Shown: positions 47,985-60,259 of the stretch, piece after piece
Layout: each line of letters begins with the position of its first letter
Position numbering within the stretch: position 1 is the first letter of the stretch
Source: Hyphomicrobiales bacterium
GTDB lineage: Bacteria; Pseudomonadota; Alphaproteobacteria; Rhizobiales; OSC116
Direction of reading: 5' to 3'
DNA length: 64,000 nucleotides
NCBI GenBank assembly: GCA_013214705.1
Contig: JABSRZ010000004.1
Coordinates: 1 to 64,000, forward strand
Made by a program: the position numbers and the translations under genes
Notes under the pieces: model-generated
What the model was told of the DNA's origin: nothing
What the model saw: the letters and a program-made list of their open reading frames with translations, nothing else
Databases searched by the model: none

Positions 47985-48656
47985 ATGACAAATCTACTTT
48001 TCATCGCCGGCAGCAGCCGCAAACAATCATTCAACAAACAATTGGCAAATGCCGCGCTAAAAACTGTGCAGCAAAGCCCAGGTGCCACAAACATCACCAC
48101 CCGCTATATCGATTTGGCTCATTTCGACATCCCGCTATATAATGGCGATCTAGAAGACGAGTTTGGCATACCGGCCGACGCGCTTAGATTGGCCGCCATA
48201 TTCACCATGCAAGATGGCATATTCATCGCCTCACCCGAATATAATGGGGTCTATTCGGCTTTGCTCAAAAACACCATAGATTGGATGTTTCGCGCCATTG
48301 GCCATCACATTGGCGATGACATCGGCGATGACAATGCCTATGACAAAGGTGATGATATTGAACCATTTAAAGATAAAGTTATTTGCCTAGCCGCGGCATC
48401 CACATTAGATGGCGGCGGCGCGCGTGGGCTTATCCAATTGCGCACGCTTATGGGTTATATGCATAGCCATGTCATTCCCAATCAATTCACATTGGGCAAT
48501 GCCGACCAAGCATTTAATGCCAATGGCAACATAACCGATCAAACCAAACAAGCTTGCCTAGAGCAGGTGTTAGGTCAATTTGTTGCCACCACAACCGCTC
48601 TAAGCGGCTCCGAACTTGACCAAAACTTAGCCCAAACAACATTAGCCTATTTATAA
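47985..48656 (+). CDS. NADPH-dependent FMN reductase family protein (paralog 1)
   Basis: The 223-aa flavodoxin-like protein has the FMN phosphate-loop LLFIAGSSRKQSFNKQLANA, the DLAHFDIPLYNGDLE segment and the flavin-contact motif IASPEYNGVYSALLKNTIDW. Family members reduce FMN, quinones, azo compounds or chromate with NAD(P)H; the substrate here is unknown. It is about 28 residues longer than its neighbour at 48742, partly through an Asp-rich insert (IGDDIGDDNAYDKGDD) encoded by a 12-base tandem repeat. The two genes probably arose by duplication. Confidence 0.88.
   Translation: MTNLLFIAGSSRKQSFNKQLANAALKTVQQSPGATNITTRYIDLAHFDIPLYNGDLEDEFGIPADALRLAAIFTMQDGIFIASPEYNGVYSALLKNTIDWMFRAIGHHIGDDIGDDNAYDKGDDIEPFKDKVICLAAASTLDGGGARGLIQLRTLMGYMHSHVIPNQFTLGNADQAFNANGNITDQTKQACLEQVLGQFVATTTALSGSELDQNLAQTTLAYL
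48309..48356 (+). repeat. In-frame 12-base tandem repeat coding for an Asp-rich insert
   Basis: Four consecutive 12-base units (starting 48309, 48321, 48333, 48345) follow the pattern ATYGGCGATGAC with decay in the third and fourth. They encode IGDD-IGDD-NAYD-KGDD within FMN reductase paralog 1 and are absent from paralog 2. The unit length is a multiple of three, so copy-number changes would keep the frame. Confidence 0.75.
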
Positions 48657-48741: not shown

Positions 48742-49329
48742 ATGATTAAATTGGTGTTTTTTGCTGGCAGTAGCCGTAGCGATTCGCTTAACAAACGCTT
48801 GGCAAAAGCCGCGGCAACTGCCGCCAAAAGTGCCACCAGAGGTGTCCCCAACGGCCCCGAAGTCGAAACCACATTCATCGACCTTGCCGATTTTGACATC
48901 CCGATGTTTAATGGCGATTTAGAACATGAACTTGGCAAACCGGTTGACGTCGTAAAGCTCAAAGCCATGCTGGCCGATTGTGATGGCATATTCATCGCCT
49001 CGCCCGAATATAATGGCGCTTATACCGGCCTGCTCAAAAATACCGTAGATTGGATGTCGCGTAATATTGGTGGCCAAGAAATCACCCCGTTTAAAGATGC
49101 CACCATCGCCATTTGCTCTGCCTCTCCCGGCCCGCGCGGTGGCCTTGCCAGCCTGTCGCCCTTGCGCCTATTGCTCAGCCACATTGGCAGCATGGTCATC
49201 CCAAGCCAAGCCGCTTTCGGCGGCGCTACATTTAACGATGATGGCAGCCTAAAAGATGAAAAACAGCAAAAATTATTAGACGCCGTATTAACAAACCTAA
49301 TCAAAACCGCCAAAGCGCTAAAAAGCTAG
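48742..49329 (+). CDS. NADPH-dependent FMN reductase family protein (paralog 2)
   Basis: The 195-aa protein has the same marks as the preceding gene: LVFFAGSSRSDSLNKRLAKA, DLADFDIPMFNGDLEHELGK and IASPEYNGAYTGLLKNTVDW. Its WMSRNIGGQEITPFKDA region is compact and lacks the Asp-rich repeat. It begins 85 bases after paralog 1 with GGAG before the ATG, so the two are possibly co-transcribed. Function is a flavin-dependent oxidoreductase of unknown substrate. Confidence 0.9.
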   Translation: MIKLVFFAGSSRSDSLNKRLAKAAATAAKSATRGVPNGPEVETTFIDLADFDIPMFNGDLEHELGKPVDVVKLKAMLADCDGIFIASPEYNGAYTGLLKNTVDWMSRNIGGQEITPFKDATIAICSASPGPRGGLASLSPLRLLLSHIGSMVIPSQAAFGGATFNDDGSLKDEKQQKLLDAVLTNLIKTAKALKS

Positions 49330-56503: not shown

Positions 56504-56700
56504 ACATTTCGTATGCCCCCAAGAATCCCAGCGATTCGGCGAGTGCGCCCAAAAGCCAAAAGGCAAACGCTGAGGCCAACGCGCGGAGGCTAGCCGCCAC
56601 TTGCAAAGCAAGTGGCGGCGCACGCACCCCAAGGGCACTTCCTCGCTTCGCTCACGGCGCAAATATGCCAACAGCCCACCGAAAGGTGGGCGTATAAATG
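56504..56700 (+). repeat. Dispersed GC-rich repeat, copy 1 (direct)
   Basis: The copy opens with TTTCGTATGCCCCCAAGAAT and GATTCGGCGAGTGCGCCC, contains CGCGCGGAGGCTAG and an 11-bp perfect hairpin CCGCCACTTGC-aaa-GCAAGTGGCGG (56595-56619), and closes with CGTATAAATG. Copies 2 and 4 share both ends; copy 3 has only the first half. It encodes no plausible protein. The M32 gene lies to the left; the 88-aa membrane protein is to the right. Confidence 0.85.
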
Positions 56701-56975
56701 AAACTCCCAGAGCGCTGGCAGGACTGCTAACTTAATTATATCCATTATTACAACCCACTGACTGCAATAGCCATTGCTTACTTTTCGCGCAAATGATAGT
56801 TTGAAGTTGGATTGATTCATATGAATAAATCTGGGGTTTAGAAACCTCTCACATAGTGGTTGTGTCAACCAAAATGACATCATCTCGATCTTATGGTCGG
56901 GGTGGTGGCGTCATGTTCAGGCTTGTGCTTCGGCGCGGACTAAAAGCGTTGCAGTTGTCTATGTGCAACTTTCTA
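56701..56975. other. Gene-free stretch between repeat copy 1 and the 88-aa gene leader
   Basis: No gene, tRNA or clear promoter was recognised. Open frames here are short and partly overlap the repeat. A small stem AGTTG-N8-CAACT lies at about 56953-56970, just before the larger hairpin. Confidence 0.4.
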
Positions 56976-57024
56976 ACACCCCGATCACCAGAGTTTTCTC
57001 TGGTGGTTATTTAAACTGGGGTGT
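56976..57024 (+). promoter_or_regulatory. Nested hairpin immediately before the 88-aa membrane protein gene
   Basis: Outer arms ACACCCC (56976-56982) and GGGGTGT (57018-57024) are perfectly complementary and enclose a second perfect stem CACCAGAG-tttt-CTCTGGTG (56986-57005). The right outer arm is the only purine-rich segment before ATG 57031, so the fold would occlude the ribosome site. This is the layout of a translational switch; no known riboswitch class was recognised. Confidence 0.5.
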
Positions 57025-57030
57025 AGTTTC

Positions 57031-57297
57031 ATGACTTATTTCTGGGTAATTTTTGTATCAATTCTGCCTATTGCAGCGTTTTATATTGTGCAAGGCACAA
57101 TTCGCCCAATGCTCATACCCAAAGCCGAAATCAGATTAATAGCCGCCAAGCTTATTAAAGAACACGGCCTAAACGCCTATGAATTTGCAGAAATAGCCGA
57201 AGAACGCGCTTGGCGATATAGCCGCATATACGACCAAGGCAAATGGAAACGCATAAGACAAGAAATAGCGCAACAATTAAGCCAAGAACATACCTAG
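57031..57297 (+). CDS. Small single-span membrane protein of unknown function
   Basis: The 88-aa frame begins MTYFWVIFVSILPIAAFYIV, a clear N-terminal membrane helix, followed by a charged cytoplasmic-looking part (EIRLIAAKLIKEHGLNAYEF, AEERAWRYSRIYDQGKWKRI). I know no family for it. Codon use and composition fit a real gene, and a strong hairpin precedes it. Repeat copy 2 begins 14 bases after its stop and copy 1 lies 330 bases before its start, so it sits between direct repeats. Confidence 0.6.
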   Translation: MTYFWVIFVSILPIAAFYIVQGTIRPMLIPKAEIRLIAAKLIKEHGLNAYEFAEIAEERAWRYSRIYDQGKWKRIRQEIAQQLSQEHT

Positions 57298-57310
57298 CCG
57301 CGAAGCCGCT

Positions 57311-57479
57311 ACATTTCGCATGCCCCCAAGAATCCCAGCGATTCGGCGAGTGCGCCCAGAAGCCAAACGGCAAACTATGAGGCCAACGCGCGGAGGCTAG
57401 CCGACACTTGCAAAGCAAGTGGCTGCGCACGCAAGTGCCAACAGTGACAAGGCCGACAGGCCGCAGGAACGTATAAATG
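57311..57479 (+). repeat. Dispersed GC-rich repeat, copy 2 (direct)
   Basis: It starts ACATTTCGCATGCCCCCAAG and follows copy 1 closely through GATTCGGCGAGTGCGCCC, CGCGCGGAGGCTAG and the stem CACTTGC-aaa-GCAAGTG, and ends with CGTATAAATG. The central part after the hairpin is shorter than in copy 1. About 190 bases beyond it, with no recognised gene, lead to the KAP NTPase. Confidence 0.85.
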
Positions 57480-57667
57480 GGAGTACCCGTAAAGTCGGCC
57501 ATATGGTGGTGTGGCTTGGGGGTGGAGTGGATACCCGCTATTTGAAAATCATGATATGCAAAACGGAAAATATCCAACTCTTTAATATTACGGGATTTTT
57601 ATACTTTGTAATGTGCACATATTGATGTAGTTTTCATTGATACATTAACCGGGAAACATTAATAACC
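57480..57667. other. AT-rich region upstream of the KAP NTPase gene
   Basis: After repeat copy 2 the composition changes to AT-rich from about 57540. It should contain the NTPase promoter, but -10-like TATACT and TAATGT near 57600-57615 have no good -35 partner. Nothing else was seen. Confidence 0.35.
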
Positions 57668-59653
57668 ATGTTTAATTCAATAATATTAATGTTGAAAAAT
57701 ATGTTGAAAATGGGAAATTCTAGCATGGAAGAAACATCAAATAACCCAAACCAACACCTAACTGACTATTTGAATTATTTTTCTACCCAGAAAGAGACTG
57801 ACTTTGCGGTTCTAATCACCGCTCCATGGGGGGCTGGAAAAACATACTTTATCCAAAACTATTTGAAACAATACAGAAACACTCGTCGAGAAAATAAGTA
57901 TAGTACATGTTATATCAGTTTAAATGGTGTAGCAGATACAGCACAAATTGACCGAATGATTGTAAGTTATAAATTTAAAGAAGCGTTACTCAGTGACACA
58001 AATAAATCAATTAAACACGAAAGAAGGAAAATTGCATCCCAAGCATCTGAAGTTGTGAGCAATATCAGGATTTTTGGTGTAAGTGTTAACATTTCAAATA
58101 TGGACTTTTTGAAACACCTGTCACCTAGCGACTATTTGGACGGAAAACTGGTTGTTTTTGATGATTTGGAACGATCAAAAATTCCACTTGATCAGCTACT
58201 TGGCTATATTAACCAACTTGTAGAACATGGTAACCAAAGAGTAATTTTAATAGCCAACGAAACAAATATCAAAAATGAAAACCTCGAGGAATACGATGCT
58301 AAAAAAGAGAAATTAATAGGAGTAACATTTGAGTATATAAATGATTTGAATGTTGTATTACCCAATTTGCTTGGAAACTTAGAAAATTGTTCTGCCAAGA
58401 CATATTTAATGAAACTCCAGCCCGAGCTATCGGAGTTATTTCACTTATTTCCAACAATAAGTTTACGTAAAATTAAATATGTTTTACGGGATTATATGCG
58501 GTTTTATAACGCAATTGGATCCAATTTTAAGGAAAAAGAATATGAATTTTACCAACTAACAAATATGTTTCTATTACTAAATTTAATGGAGAAAAATAAT
58601 TGGTTGGGAAATGAAAGATTTGATTATTTGCCTACATTTGTTTTTGAAGTTTTCGGACAACCAGATCGCGCATTAGAAGAAATTAGCAATGAAAACTCCC
58701 TGAACGTAGTCGAATTAGGAGGCTTTATTAGGAAAGCGGACGACCAATTCATACCTGATAACATAATTTTAACTAATCAGTTATGGGTTGATATTATTCG
58801 TAATAACTACATAAATAGTTATGATTTGGAAAATAATCTGGCCAATAACCCTTTGTTCCTTAACGAATCGGAAAATCCTATATGGTATAGAATATTGTCA
58901 ATACACAGCCAGCTAGATGACGTGTTTGAACGCAACCTGAGCGCATGGACTACTGCTTTCATAAATAGAGAGTATAAGAACGCTGAAGCCATGTTGCACA
59001 TGTTTGGATTCAGGTTGTTTCTAAGTAATACAAATATTATCGATGAAAATAGCGATGAAGTTATTAAAAAATCCAAAAAATATATTGATGATATATTGGG
59101 TAATAAGCATTATATAGACGATTTGAATTGGGAATTTGGAAGTCATTCCCCCAGTGGCGTTGGCTACTTTCTATCGGATAAGCCACAATTTATTGAAATT
59201 TTGAATTACTTGAAACAAGAATCAAAGAAATACAAGTTAGCAAAGTATGAGAAACTAAATCAAAAATTGATGGATGTGTTAAAAATAAGCTGTATTGAGT
59301 TTAGAAACAAGTTGAAAAATTTCGAAGAACATTATTATTCTCATCCTTCACTCAATAATTTGAATGTTAAAGAATTTGTTGAAATTATTCTTCAAAAAGA
59401 AGACCACAACGACCAAGTTAAAATTTTTTGGCTATTTGGAAGCAGGTGGGAACATAATGATCATTACAAATTGTTAGTAAAAGAATACTTTTGGCTCAAA
59501 AATTTGAAGCATGAGTTTATTGCACAGCTTAAGAAAGAAAGTAAATTGACCCAGTATAGAATTCATTCTTTCATAAACGAATATATTGACCCAACATTGA
59601 TTTCAAACCGTAAGCAATACGATCAGGATTTTATTGGCCCACCGCCGAAATAA
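57668..59653 (+). CDS. KAP-family P-loop NTPase, putative phage-defence or exclusion protein
   Basis: The 661-aa protein has a Walker A motif APWGAGKT (residues 52-59), a Walker B motif LVVFDDLER (161-169) and a following strand RVILIANETN, the pattern of KAP NTPases, whose members include PifA (phage exclusion) and QatA. The membrane helices often inserted between the Walker motifs in KAP proteins are absent. The C-terminal two thirds match nothing I recognise. A start at 57725 (MEETSNNPNQHL, with GGGAAA upstream) is also possible. Base composition is clearly more AT-rich than neighbours (58441-58500 has 16 G/C of 60 by hand count), suggesting transfer. Repeats flank it. Confidence 0.75.
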   Translation: MFNSIILMLKNMLKMGNSSMEETSNNPNQHLTDYLNYFSTQKETDFAVLITAPWGAGKTYFIQNYLKQYRNTRRENKYSTCYISLNGVADTAQIDRMIVSYKFKEALLSDTNKSIKHERRKIASQASEVVSNIRIFGVSVNISNMDFLKHLSPSDYLDGKLVVFDDLERSKIPLDQLLGYINQLVEHGNQRVILIANETNIKNENLEEYDAKKEKLIGVTFEYINDLNVVLPNLLGNLENCSAKTYLMKLQPELSELFHLFPTISLRKIKYVLRDYMRFYNAIGSNFKEKEYEFYQLTNMFLLLNLMEKNNWLGNERFDYLPTFVFEVFGQPDRALEEISNENSLNVVELGGFIRKADDQFIPDNIILTNQLWVDIIRNNYINSYDLENNLANNPLFLNESENPIWYRILSIHSQLDDVFERNLSAWTTAFINREYKNAEAMLHMFGFRLFLSNTNIIDENSDEVIKKSKKYIDDILGNKHYIDDLNWEFGSHSPSGVGYFLSDKPQFIEILNYLKQESKKYKLAKYEKLNQKLMDVLKISCIEFRNKLKNFEEHYYSHPSLNNLNVKEFVEIILQKEDHNDQVKIFWLFGSRWEHNDHYKLLVKEYFWLKNLKHEFIAQLKKESKLTQYRIHSFINEYIDPTLISNRKQYDQDFIGPPPK

Positions 59654-59780
59654 ATATTTAGTCTCTGTATGGTTAGTTGTGTATCAGCCCCACGGCCTTC
59701 GGCCTCGCCCCTGCTCCCACCCGCACCCGCACTTTGTCGCTACGCTCGGGCGCGTGCGCTCCAATCGCTCCGCTCAATAC

Positions 59781-59868
59781 ACTAGCCTCCGCGCGTAGCC
59801 CTCAGCGTTTGCCTTAAGGCTTCTGGGCGCACTCACCGAATGGCAGGGATTCTTGCGGGCAAACGAAA
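59781..59868 (-). repeat. Dispersed GC-rich repeat, copy 3 (inverted, half length)
   Basis: Read on the minus strand it gives TTTCGTTTGCCCGCAAGAAT, CATTCGGTGAGTGCGCCC, AAGGCAAACGCTGAGG and CGCGCGGAGGCTAG, matching the first half of copies 1 and 2. The closing CGTATAAATG is missing. The 130 bases between it and the KAP stop are GC-rich with no gene. Homology with copy 4 continues to about 59907, outside the part shared with the left copies. Confidence 0.8.
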
Positions 59869-59935
59869 ACCCAGAGGCTGTTGTTAGAAACTCAGCCCAA
59901 ACACACCACCAGCCGGCCAACACTCTGGAAGTCTG

Positions 59936-60147
59936 CATTTATACGTTCTTTCGGCTTCGCCTCTTTCACTGTTAGCGCATTTCGCTTTGCTCTTATGCTT
60001 ACCTGCGGGCGCACGCCTCCGCGCGCTTGCTACGCCCTAACGGGCGGCCTCAGCCGGCAAGTTCGCCAACAAGTTGGCTCGCCTCTTTGCTCACGAAAAA
60101 TCGGGGCGCACTCGCCGAATCACCGGGGTTCTTGCGGGCAGACGAAA
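59936..60147 (-). repeat. Dispersed GC-rich repeat, copy 4 (inverted, full length)
   Basis: On the minus strand it begins TTTCGTCTGCCCGCAAGAAC and GATTCGGCGAGTGCGCCC, contains CGCGCGGAGGC and ends CGTATAAATG (59936-59945), so both ends match copies 1 and 2 in opposite orientation. The middle is longer and diverged, with its own small stems such as GCCAAC-AAG-TTGGC. It lies 112 bases before the small basic protein gene. Confidence 0.8.
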
Positions 60148-60259
60148 CTCTGAGTTTGCTGCTAGTAACTCAACGCTAACCCACAATATGCGTTAGTCGC
60201 CCTTCCCTTTAACCCGAATCTAGGCTAATCTATAGGCTAACCAAAAAAGGGTCATTCCG

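Follow-up and report, generated by a model that had tools for sequence, protein, structure and literature searches.

The stretch of DNA analysed here, called the window throughout, comprises 64,000 nucleotides (nt) of a Hyphomicrobiales bacterium (contig JABSRZ010000004.1, positions 1 to 64,000, assembly GCA_013214705.1; genome G000). Near its right end lies a gene for a KAP-type NTPase, enclosed by copies of a repeat rich in guanine plus cytosine (GC). Two loaded elements are nested at this locus, with genes standing between repeat arms as arm > TM88 > arm > KAP < arm < arm, TM88 being a membrane protein of 88 amino acids (aa). The outer left arm (56507-56699, forward strand) was recognised by a profile match and has its inverted partner in the outer right arm (59937-60147, reverse strand). 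It is followed by a remnant of the element core of about 35 nt (56700-56734, forward strand); core homology stops 35 nt beyond the arm, where the cargo starts. The forward strand then carries a leader with a 52-aa reading frame containing the motif SRSYGRG (56856-57014) and, directly ahead of the 88-aa gene, an attenuator- or terminator-like hairpin, ACACCCC...GGGGTGT (56976-57024), recognised by its fold and a leader alignment. TM88 itself (57031-57297, forward strand) is a single-span protein with a maximum 19-aa hydropathy of 2.09. The inner left arm (57314-57478, forward strand) separates it from the KAP gene (57725-59653, forward strand). The inner right arm (59752-59869, reverse strand) is degenerate at its inner end and matches profile positions 1-121 only. 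Between both right arms a core remnant of the outer element remains (59870-59936), with an end of the GGCCGGCTGGTGGTGTG type that was also seen in other loaded elements. Arm borders were taken from a profile built from the repeat copies of G000, complemented by pairwise repeat comparison for the inner left and outer right arms.

A first-pass annotation had described two direct and two inverted GC-rich repeat copies around an AT-rich KAP islet, and these features hold. The direct copies (56504-56626 and 57311-57433) share 94% identity across 123 nt; complementarity between them and the inverted arms (59782-59868 and 60101/60104-60147) is 85-89%. The GC content of the KAP cassette is 0.337, compared with a background mean of 0.454 (standard deviation 0.024) in the DNA fetched from G000; none of the 1,334 overlapping background windows of the same length is as low. 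Within the 64 kb, 15 of the 630 one-kb windows fall below 0.37 GC, all 15 at the KAP locus. The further suggestion of a small mobile or repeat-targeted defence islet stands as far as the repeat borders and a probable defence gene are concerned, while targeted insertion of a mobile islet at the KAP site is unproven.

In its basic form, the repeat makes up a palindromic element that spans about 480 nt and consists of an arm (about 165 nt), a core (about 154 nt) and an inverted arm. The first repeat copy as query lists 50 matches in the 3.5-Mb genome G000. A 31-nt pattern matches 42 times and a second pattern 57 times in this genome, both with no match in the control. The 31 stretches fetched around repeat copies of G000 (332,979 bases) contain 99 arms. 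Neighbouring arms in forward-reverse ('+-') orientation form 38 pairs there, 26 of them compact (gap 140-171 nt), 11 with a gap of 300-3,300 nt and one with a gap below 140 nt. Over all loci examined, 55 distinct cores of 150-158 nt were obtained. Element DNA is found in all six genomes of the genus (G000 to G005), four of which are rich (96, 58, 55 and 53 matches) and two poor (4 and 3). The repeat is genome-wide in G000. Judged from these sequence comparisons, it most likely forms a lineage-specific element family, whose members would be old, inherited fixtures at many chromosomal positions.

Other arm pairs hold foreign, usually AT-rich genes: defence-type genes, toxin-antitoxin pairs and unclassified ones. 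Counted as defence-type, besides KAP, are ThsB TIR, ThsB with ThsA-macro, the PARIS AriA-like gene and the HD-CE gene with its Hsp90-like ATPase domain. The cargo in G000 includes a ThsB TIR protein (PF08937, E 1.1e-18) with a 208-aa open reading frame (ORF), a DUF6119/TIGR04141 protein, a protein with a Tle1-like phospholipase domain, a 569-aa protein of no assigned family near leuD, a 99-aa ORF with a 204-aa ORF that is weakly methyltransferase-like (E 9.2e-4), and one cassette with three ORFs without matches. Another loaded element lies right of the window, past a bioA-like gene (L013 14619-18099, equal to G000 C34 about 64618-68098); it encodes an 806-aa protein with HD-CE and Hsp90-like ATPase domains and a 99-aa ORF. 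Relatives carry a PARIS AriA/AriAB-like ATPase (E 4.4e-34; G002), ThsB with ThsA-macro (E 3.6e-21 and 1.8e-27), VapBC-, HigBA- and YefM-YoeB-type pairs, an AAA_33 kinase-like protein, a serine resolvase and a DUF805 protein. Most cassette ends retain the arm and roughly 13-50 nt of core, and at a few ends 70-110 nt remain. Because the junctions keep the arm and a short core stretch, the core has been replaced wholly or partly by cargo. The '+-' cassettes with gaps of 300-3,300 nt cover 16,668 of the 332,979 bases from G000 (5.0%) but hold 47 of the 56 one-kb windows below 0.37 GC. Of the individual gaps tested for GC, only five have a value lower than that of every background window. In the first-pass annotation, a genome-wide scatter of the repeat without relation to the KAP gene had been named as speaking against an islet. 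The scatter was found, but the repeats are not unrelated to cargo, as other copies hold other foreign genes.

The same sites were followed across species. Forty-six arm clusters of G000 had enough flanking DNA, and for 15 of them both flanks were matched in the locus of a relative. Arms lie between the flanks at 14 of these 15 sites: 11 entries show a regular '+-' pair (two of these entries are one place in G005), two show a single arm and one shows an irregular pair. The remaining site is element-free. The matched flanks at shared element sites are about 70-87% identical between species. The content changes. The L027 site carries a compact element in two species (G000, 155 nt; G001, 128 nt); in G005 the kinase-like gene stands in place of the core, and arms and flanks align. 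In G001, the L115 site holds the DUF805 gene, with a left flank that is matched only at a distance of 718 nt; in G000 this site is compact. The ThsB site is loaded in G000 and compact in G005 (the right flank resumes about 640 nt away); the three-ORF site is loaded in G000 and compact in G001 (the left flank resumes 1.2 kb away). The region downstream of leuD carries the 569-aa gene in G000, the AriA-like gene in G002 and, in G005, an array of VapBC, a 235-aa protein, TM88 and YefM-YoeB. The names leuD, trmD, truB, rbfA, bioA, fliI and carboxypeptidase are putative and were read from translations only. Since content changes at shared sites, which is the main evidence, the elements are most likely lasting fixtures inside which cargo turns over. 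This pattern is seen at sibling sites, not at the KAP site.

A rearrangement was observed near leuD in G001. In L048 (contig C32, 7,413 nt), rplS-leuC-leuD is inverted beside trmD relative to L025 of G000, with elements at the junction. The arrangement looks as if two elements had recombined; it could be an assembly error.

It is proposed that the elements are standing palindromic sockets. In most inverted pairs the filler core of about 154 nt separates the arms, and in some, foreign genes would have taken its place. The conserved arms would let cargo be exchanged by homologous recombination, with no need for a dedicated recombinase, and the elements would serve as interchangeable sockets. Recombination through the arms would explain, without a dedicated enzyme, why sites are shared and their content changes, how the core is replaced, how cassettes come to be nested and why the flanks near leuD are rearranged in G005 and G001. 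We infer both this recombination and the anti-phage activity of cargo, and consider the proposal probably correct. A more far-reaching version is offered tentatively and may well claim too much: a genome-wide, recombinase-free cassette exchange, in which evolved or domesticated sockets are loaded with anti-phage, toxin-antitoxin and phage-derived immunity genes that are nested and swapped, any cargo fitting any socket. Two studies raise the question of how chromosomal defence genes are gained or swapped when no integrase or transposase is visible (PMC9122126, PMC10250203). If a dispersed repeat marks exact cassette borders, this exchange would become testable, as compact and loaded alleles could be compared position by position. 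Such a repeat would also provide a simple search rule: genes of no known family lying between arms (569 aa, 235 aa, 229 aa and others) could be treated as candidates for defence.

Several observations weigh against exchangeable sockets. No recombination event was observed in the comparisons, which were made at species level. For the KAP site, neither an empty nor a compact allele turned up in about 1.5 kb of flank around the relatives' copies of both neighbour genes; the left-flank carboxypeptidase occurs in four of five relatives without arms in the 1.4-1.5 kb upstream, the small right-flank gene in four of five in other surroundings, and the two adjoin neither each other nor an arm. The presence/absence comparison proposed in the first-pass annotation speaks for an islet in one respect: a search of the other five genomes of the genus, two of them less than 80% complete, did not find the KAP gene. 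The proportion of shared sites is inflated, relatives' loci having been picked for holding arms, and the relatives named in the scan are metagenome assemblies. Cargo is partly shared near leuD, where VapBC of G001 is 86-91% identical to that of G005; the TM88 copies near leuD in these two genomes may share ancestry. Ordinary genes at normal GC occupy arm-bounded gaps at L075/L113, L110, L098, L078 and L106, so that some brackets are chance neighbours and not cassettes. PADLOC labels five of 21 cargo proteins compared with one of 10 flanking controls (a methyltransferase-like protein against the mads_2 model), an enrichment that is not significant alone. Non-compact neighbouring arms are only mildly biased in orientation (+- 12, -+ 8, -- 6, ++ 4). 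ComEC, found in five of the six genomes, says little, because it is also present in 10 of 14 control genomes.

Non-autonomous transposons, akin to large miniature inverted-repeat transposable elements (MITEs), would account for the arms as terminal inverted repeats, with a transposase acting in trans and the cargo as passenger. Inverted arms in many copies with fairly conserved outer ends fit this origin. A single-arm copy in G000 (L026 13397-13545), compared with an element-free intergenic site in G005 (L071 7367-7383), has a possible 7-nt duplication, TGCATTT, on both sides, which leaves transposition as a possible origin of the elements; it is the sole candidate target duplication. Against these features stand the elements at shared sites in species as far apart as the flank identities above, and the differing content at such sites. 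The cargo ORFs scanned include no recognised transposase. The search of the genomes was aimed at the Y1/RAYT family (PF01797) only, which was found in G004 and not in G000, G001, G002, G003 or G005, four of which are element-rich. Transposition is an unlikely explanation of the cassettes.

Site-specific recombination, of an integron-like or serine recombinase type, would make the arms recombination sites that separate cassettes. The G005 array arm-VapBC-arm-235aa-arm-TM88-arm-YefM/YoeB-arm has such a layout, and a serine resolvase gene lies between inverted arms in the same genome (L085 271-840, C79). The resolvase was rejected as a common mobility enzyme: G001 has no match and G000 a weak partial one, both being element-rich. 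An integron integrase over the TIGR02249 cut-off was found in none of the six genomes, and sub-threshold matches occur in all 14 control genomes as well. The varying lengths of retained core argue against a fixed crossover point. A dedicated cassette system is quite improbable.

Coincidence would mean that a common intergenic repeat flanks a horizontally acquired gene by chance. Repeats do occur genome-wide, and some arm pairs bracket ordinary genes, as listed above. This reading is nevertheless very improbable in view of the 47 of 56 AT-rich windows confined to 5% of the fetched DNA, the core sequence that at most junctions extends beyond the arm into the enclosed DNA, the alternation of loaded and compact states at shared sites and the same place of TM88 in four of five copies. 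An assembly artefact, by which collapsed or misjoined repeats put foreign DNA between arms, is suggested by the metagenome origin of the relatives and the odd trmD-leuD order in the one short G001 contig, but is hardly credible with the window inside a contig of 560,936 nt and the same pattern present in several genomes, where a number of sites have both flanks matched.

Under the preferred reading of exchangeable sockets, the KAP gene is one cargo among others. Its ORF, reported as 661 aa in the first-pass annotation, is open from 57668 to 59653; alignment to relatives favours a start at 57725 (642 aa). The protein matches PF07693 with 49.2 bits (cut-off 20) and the PADLOC candidate defence family PDC-S49, a KAP NTPase, over its full length (E 7.8e-114, profile 3-615 of 624), with no difference in layout seen. 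The profile check of the NTPase proposed in the first-pass annotation supports a probable defence gene; the name PDC-S49 was not found in the open-licence literature. NCBIfam gave no match to KAP or TM88. The Walker A residues W35, G36, G38 and K39 (WG.GK) and the Walker B residues F145, D146, D147, E149 and R150 (FDD.ER) are invariant in 41 sequences. Classical KAP proteins such as PifA have membrane segments between Walker A and B. The KAP protein of the window has no membrane segment (highest 19-aa hydropathy 0.95) and represents a soluble branch, for which a working like that of PifA is not claimed. Distant matches occur in two of 55 genomes of the same order, and distant relatives in 39 plasmid records and 70 viral contigs. 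In 36 of the 38 longer viral loci measured, the region that matches has a higher AT content than the locus around it. A pattern scan of genome contigs returned 33 stretches and no confirmed relative.

A sequence search against solved structures gave no match to KAP. The structure predicted with an alignment has a mean predicted local distance difference test score (pLDDT) of 81.9, compared with 35.4 without one. Fold comparisons cover mainly residues 5-337 and barely the C-terminal half. Residues 5-337 resemble TnsC (Z 14.7, root-mean-square deviation 4.0-5.1 Å, 223-249 residues), and ORC/Cdc6 AAA+ proteins also match. RdrA of RADAR matches the model with Z 13.1 and 6.3 Å over 302 residues and tops the Foldseek list (E 8.9e-05, TM 0.29), at low TM-scores of 0.26-0.29; the likeness of the modelled KAP to RdrA is a lead only. 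The viral structure library yielded general AAA+ proteins only. KAP is predicted to be a probable anti-phage gene. From the model it is a fair inference that the product is a sensor-ATPase. It would work without a partner, as a soluble ATPase of the AAA+/STAND-like kind that has its motor at the N terminus; the long, helical C-terminal portion may sense infection and stop growth or phage replication.

TM88 had been taken in the first-pass annotation for a possible partner of the NTPase. A KAP-specific partnership is not supported: an arm lies between the two genes, and TM88 recurs in the same position ahead of other cargo in three more cassettes. Four further copies are known in the genus, two each in G005 and G001. 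The order arm > TM88 > arm > cargo, in the same orientation, is found in four of the five copies (the window, both G005 copies and one of G001), and the cargo behind TM88 is KAP, ThsB with ThsA, the 235-aa protein or a 229-aa protein. All four cassette copies share an alignable DNA leader, and a strong hairpin precedes the gene; SRSYGRG is readable in three of the four, that is in two of the three besides the window. The 52-aa leader frame matches no Pfam family at a meaningful E-value (best 0.16). No arms were found at the fifth copy (G001 C14). There (L060 1033-1758), and at a homologue on a viral contig (L112 3539-4255), TM88 stands beside ORFs that by eye resemble helix-turn-helix repressors, with a RepA-like AAA ATPase nearby. 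No match was found in phage records. TM88 is most likely a separate cassette gene, with a predicted origin in a phage or satellite immunity (repressor) region; possibly, it is a superinfection-exclusion protein.

An exact-pattern scan over 84,980 species returned 49 repeat stretches in six assemblies, all of them alphaproteobacterial metagenome assemblies. Forty-six of the 49 fall in three assemblies of the genus (G005, G001 and G002), membership being established for these 46; the scan covers the exact pattern and may omit the window's own genome. One of these three assemblies is labelled OCS116 cluster, an unplaced alphaproteobacterial clade. The same kind of scan found the pattern in no viral contig. 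A coding role of the core was rejected, as 54 cores show no codon-phase signal. The core was likewise rejected as a conserved RNA, with little conserved folding beyond the outer stem; its consensus energy is -3.58 on one strand, compared with a column-shuffled mean of -1.08 (standard deviation 1.19), and -1.07 compared with -1.51 on the other. Rfam gave no match in the window at gathering thresholds, and in four element-bearing loci searched at E<=5 the sole match over its gathering score was a tRNA outside the element. Among the listed matches of the open-licence literature, no description of this repeat family was found. Some arms are fused to, or directly border on, another dispersed repeat (GAGCCAACTTGTTGGCGAACTTGCC...GAGGCCGCCCGTTAGGGCGTAGCAAGC), which yields mosaic elements, e.g. 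at window positions 60025-60090 and L007 3486-3600. Elsewhere in the window, an 89-nt repeat (48213-48301 and 48982-49070, 81% identity) perhaps reflects a tandem gene duplication.

Several known systems offer comparisons. The elements differ from a repetitive extragenic palindromic (REP) element mobilised by a RAYT transposase and from an integron cassette array in the enzymes noted above, Y1/RAYT being undetected in five and the integron integrase in all six genomes. The P2/P4 hotspots are loci of 1-5 kb with a high turnover of defence systems including PARIS, for which recombination has been proposed (PMC9122126). They are situated in phages and satellites between phage genes, unlike the chromosomal, repeat-bounded and many-sited elements described here. 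In Pseudomonas aeruginosa, core defence hotspots have fixed flanks and changing defence genes, and recombination via the conserved flanks was suggested (PMC10250203). These are two sites bordered by core genes and non-coding-RNA genes, and core defence hotspot 1 (cDHS1) ranges in size from 1 to 224 kb; the accessible text of this source describes no dispersed repeat family.

Two systems of Neisseria come closer. Correia repeat enclosed elements have 26-nt ends and total lengths of mostly 104-108 or 153-157 nt (PMC2649163). Like them, the present elements are inverted repeats around a core of conserved length, apparently restricted to one genus, with many copies and no encoded transposase, and Correia elements are also linked to rearrangement. 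They differ in size, with arms of about 165 nt and a total of about 480 nt here, and cargo replacing the core is not described for Correia elements in the accessible text of the same source. Minimal mobile elements are small variable loci at fixed sites, which hold strain-specific whole-gene cassettes exchanged by homologous recombination (PMC3082526). Different whole-gene cassettes at one site are found here too, between species, at leuD and L027 and not at the KAP site. The borders of minimal mobile elements are two conserved genes, unlike the site-conserved arms of a dispersed palindromic repeat, with nested cassettes and dozens of sites. Although border type and size fall outside the strict definitions, the system would by analogy work like a minimal mobile element with repeat arms as its borders, built on an element reminiscent of the Correia type but larger.

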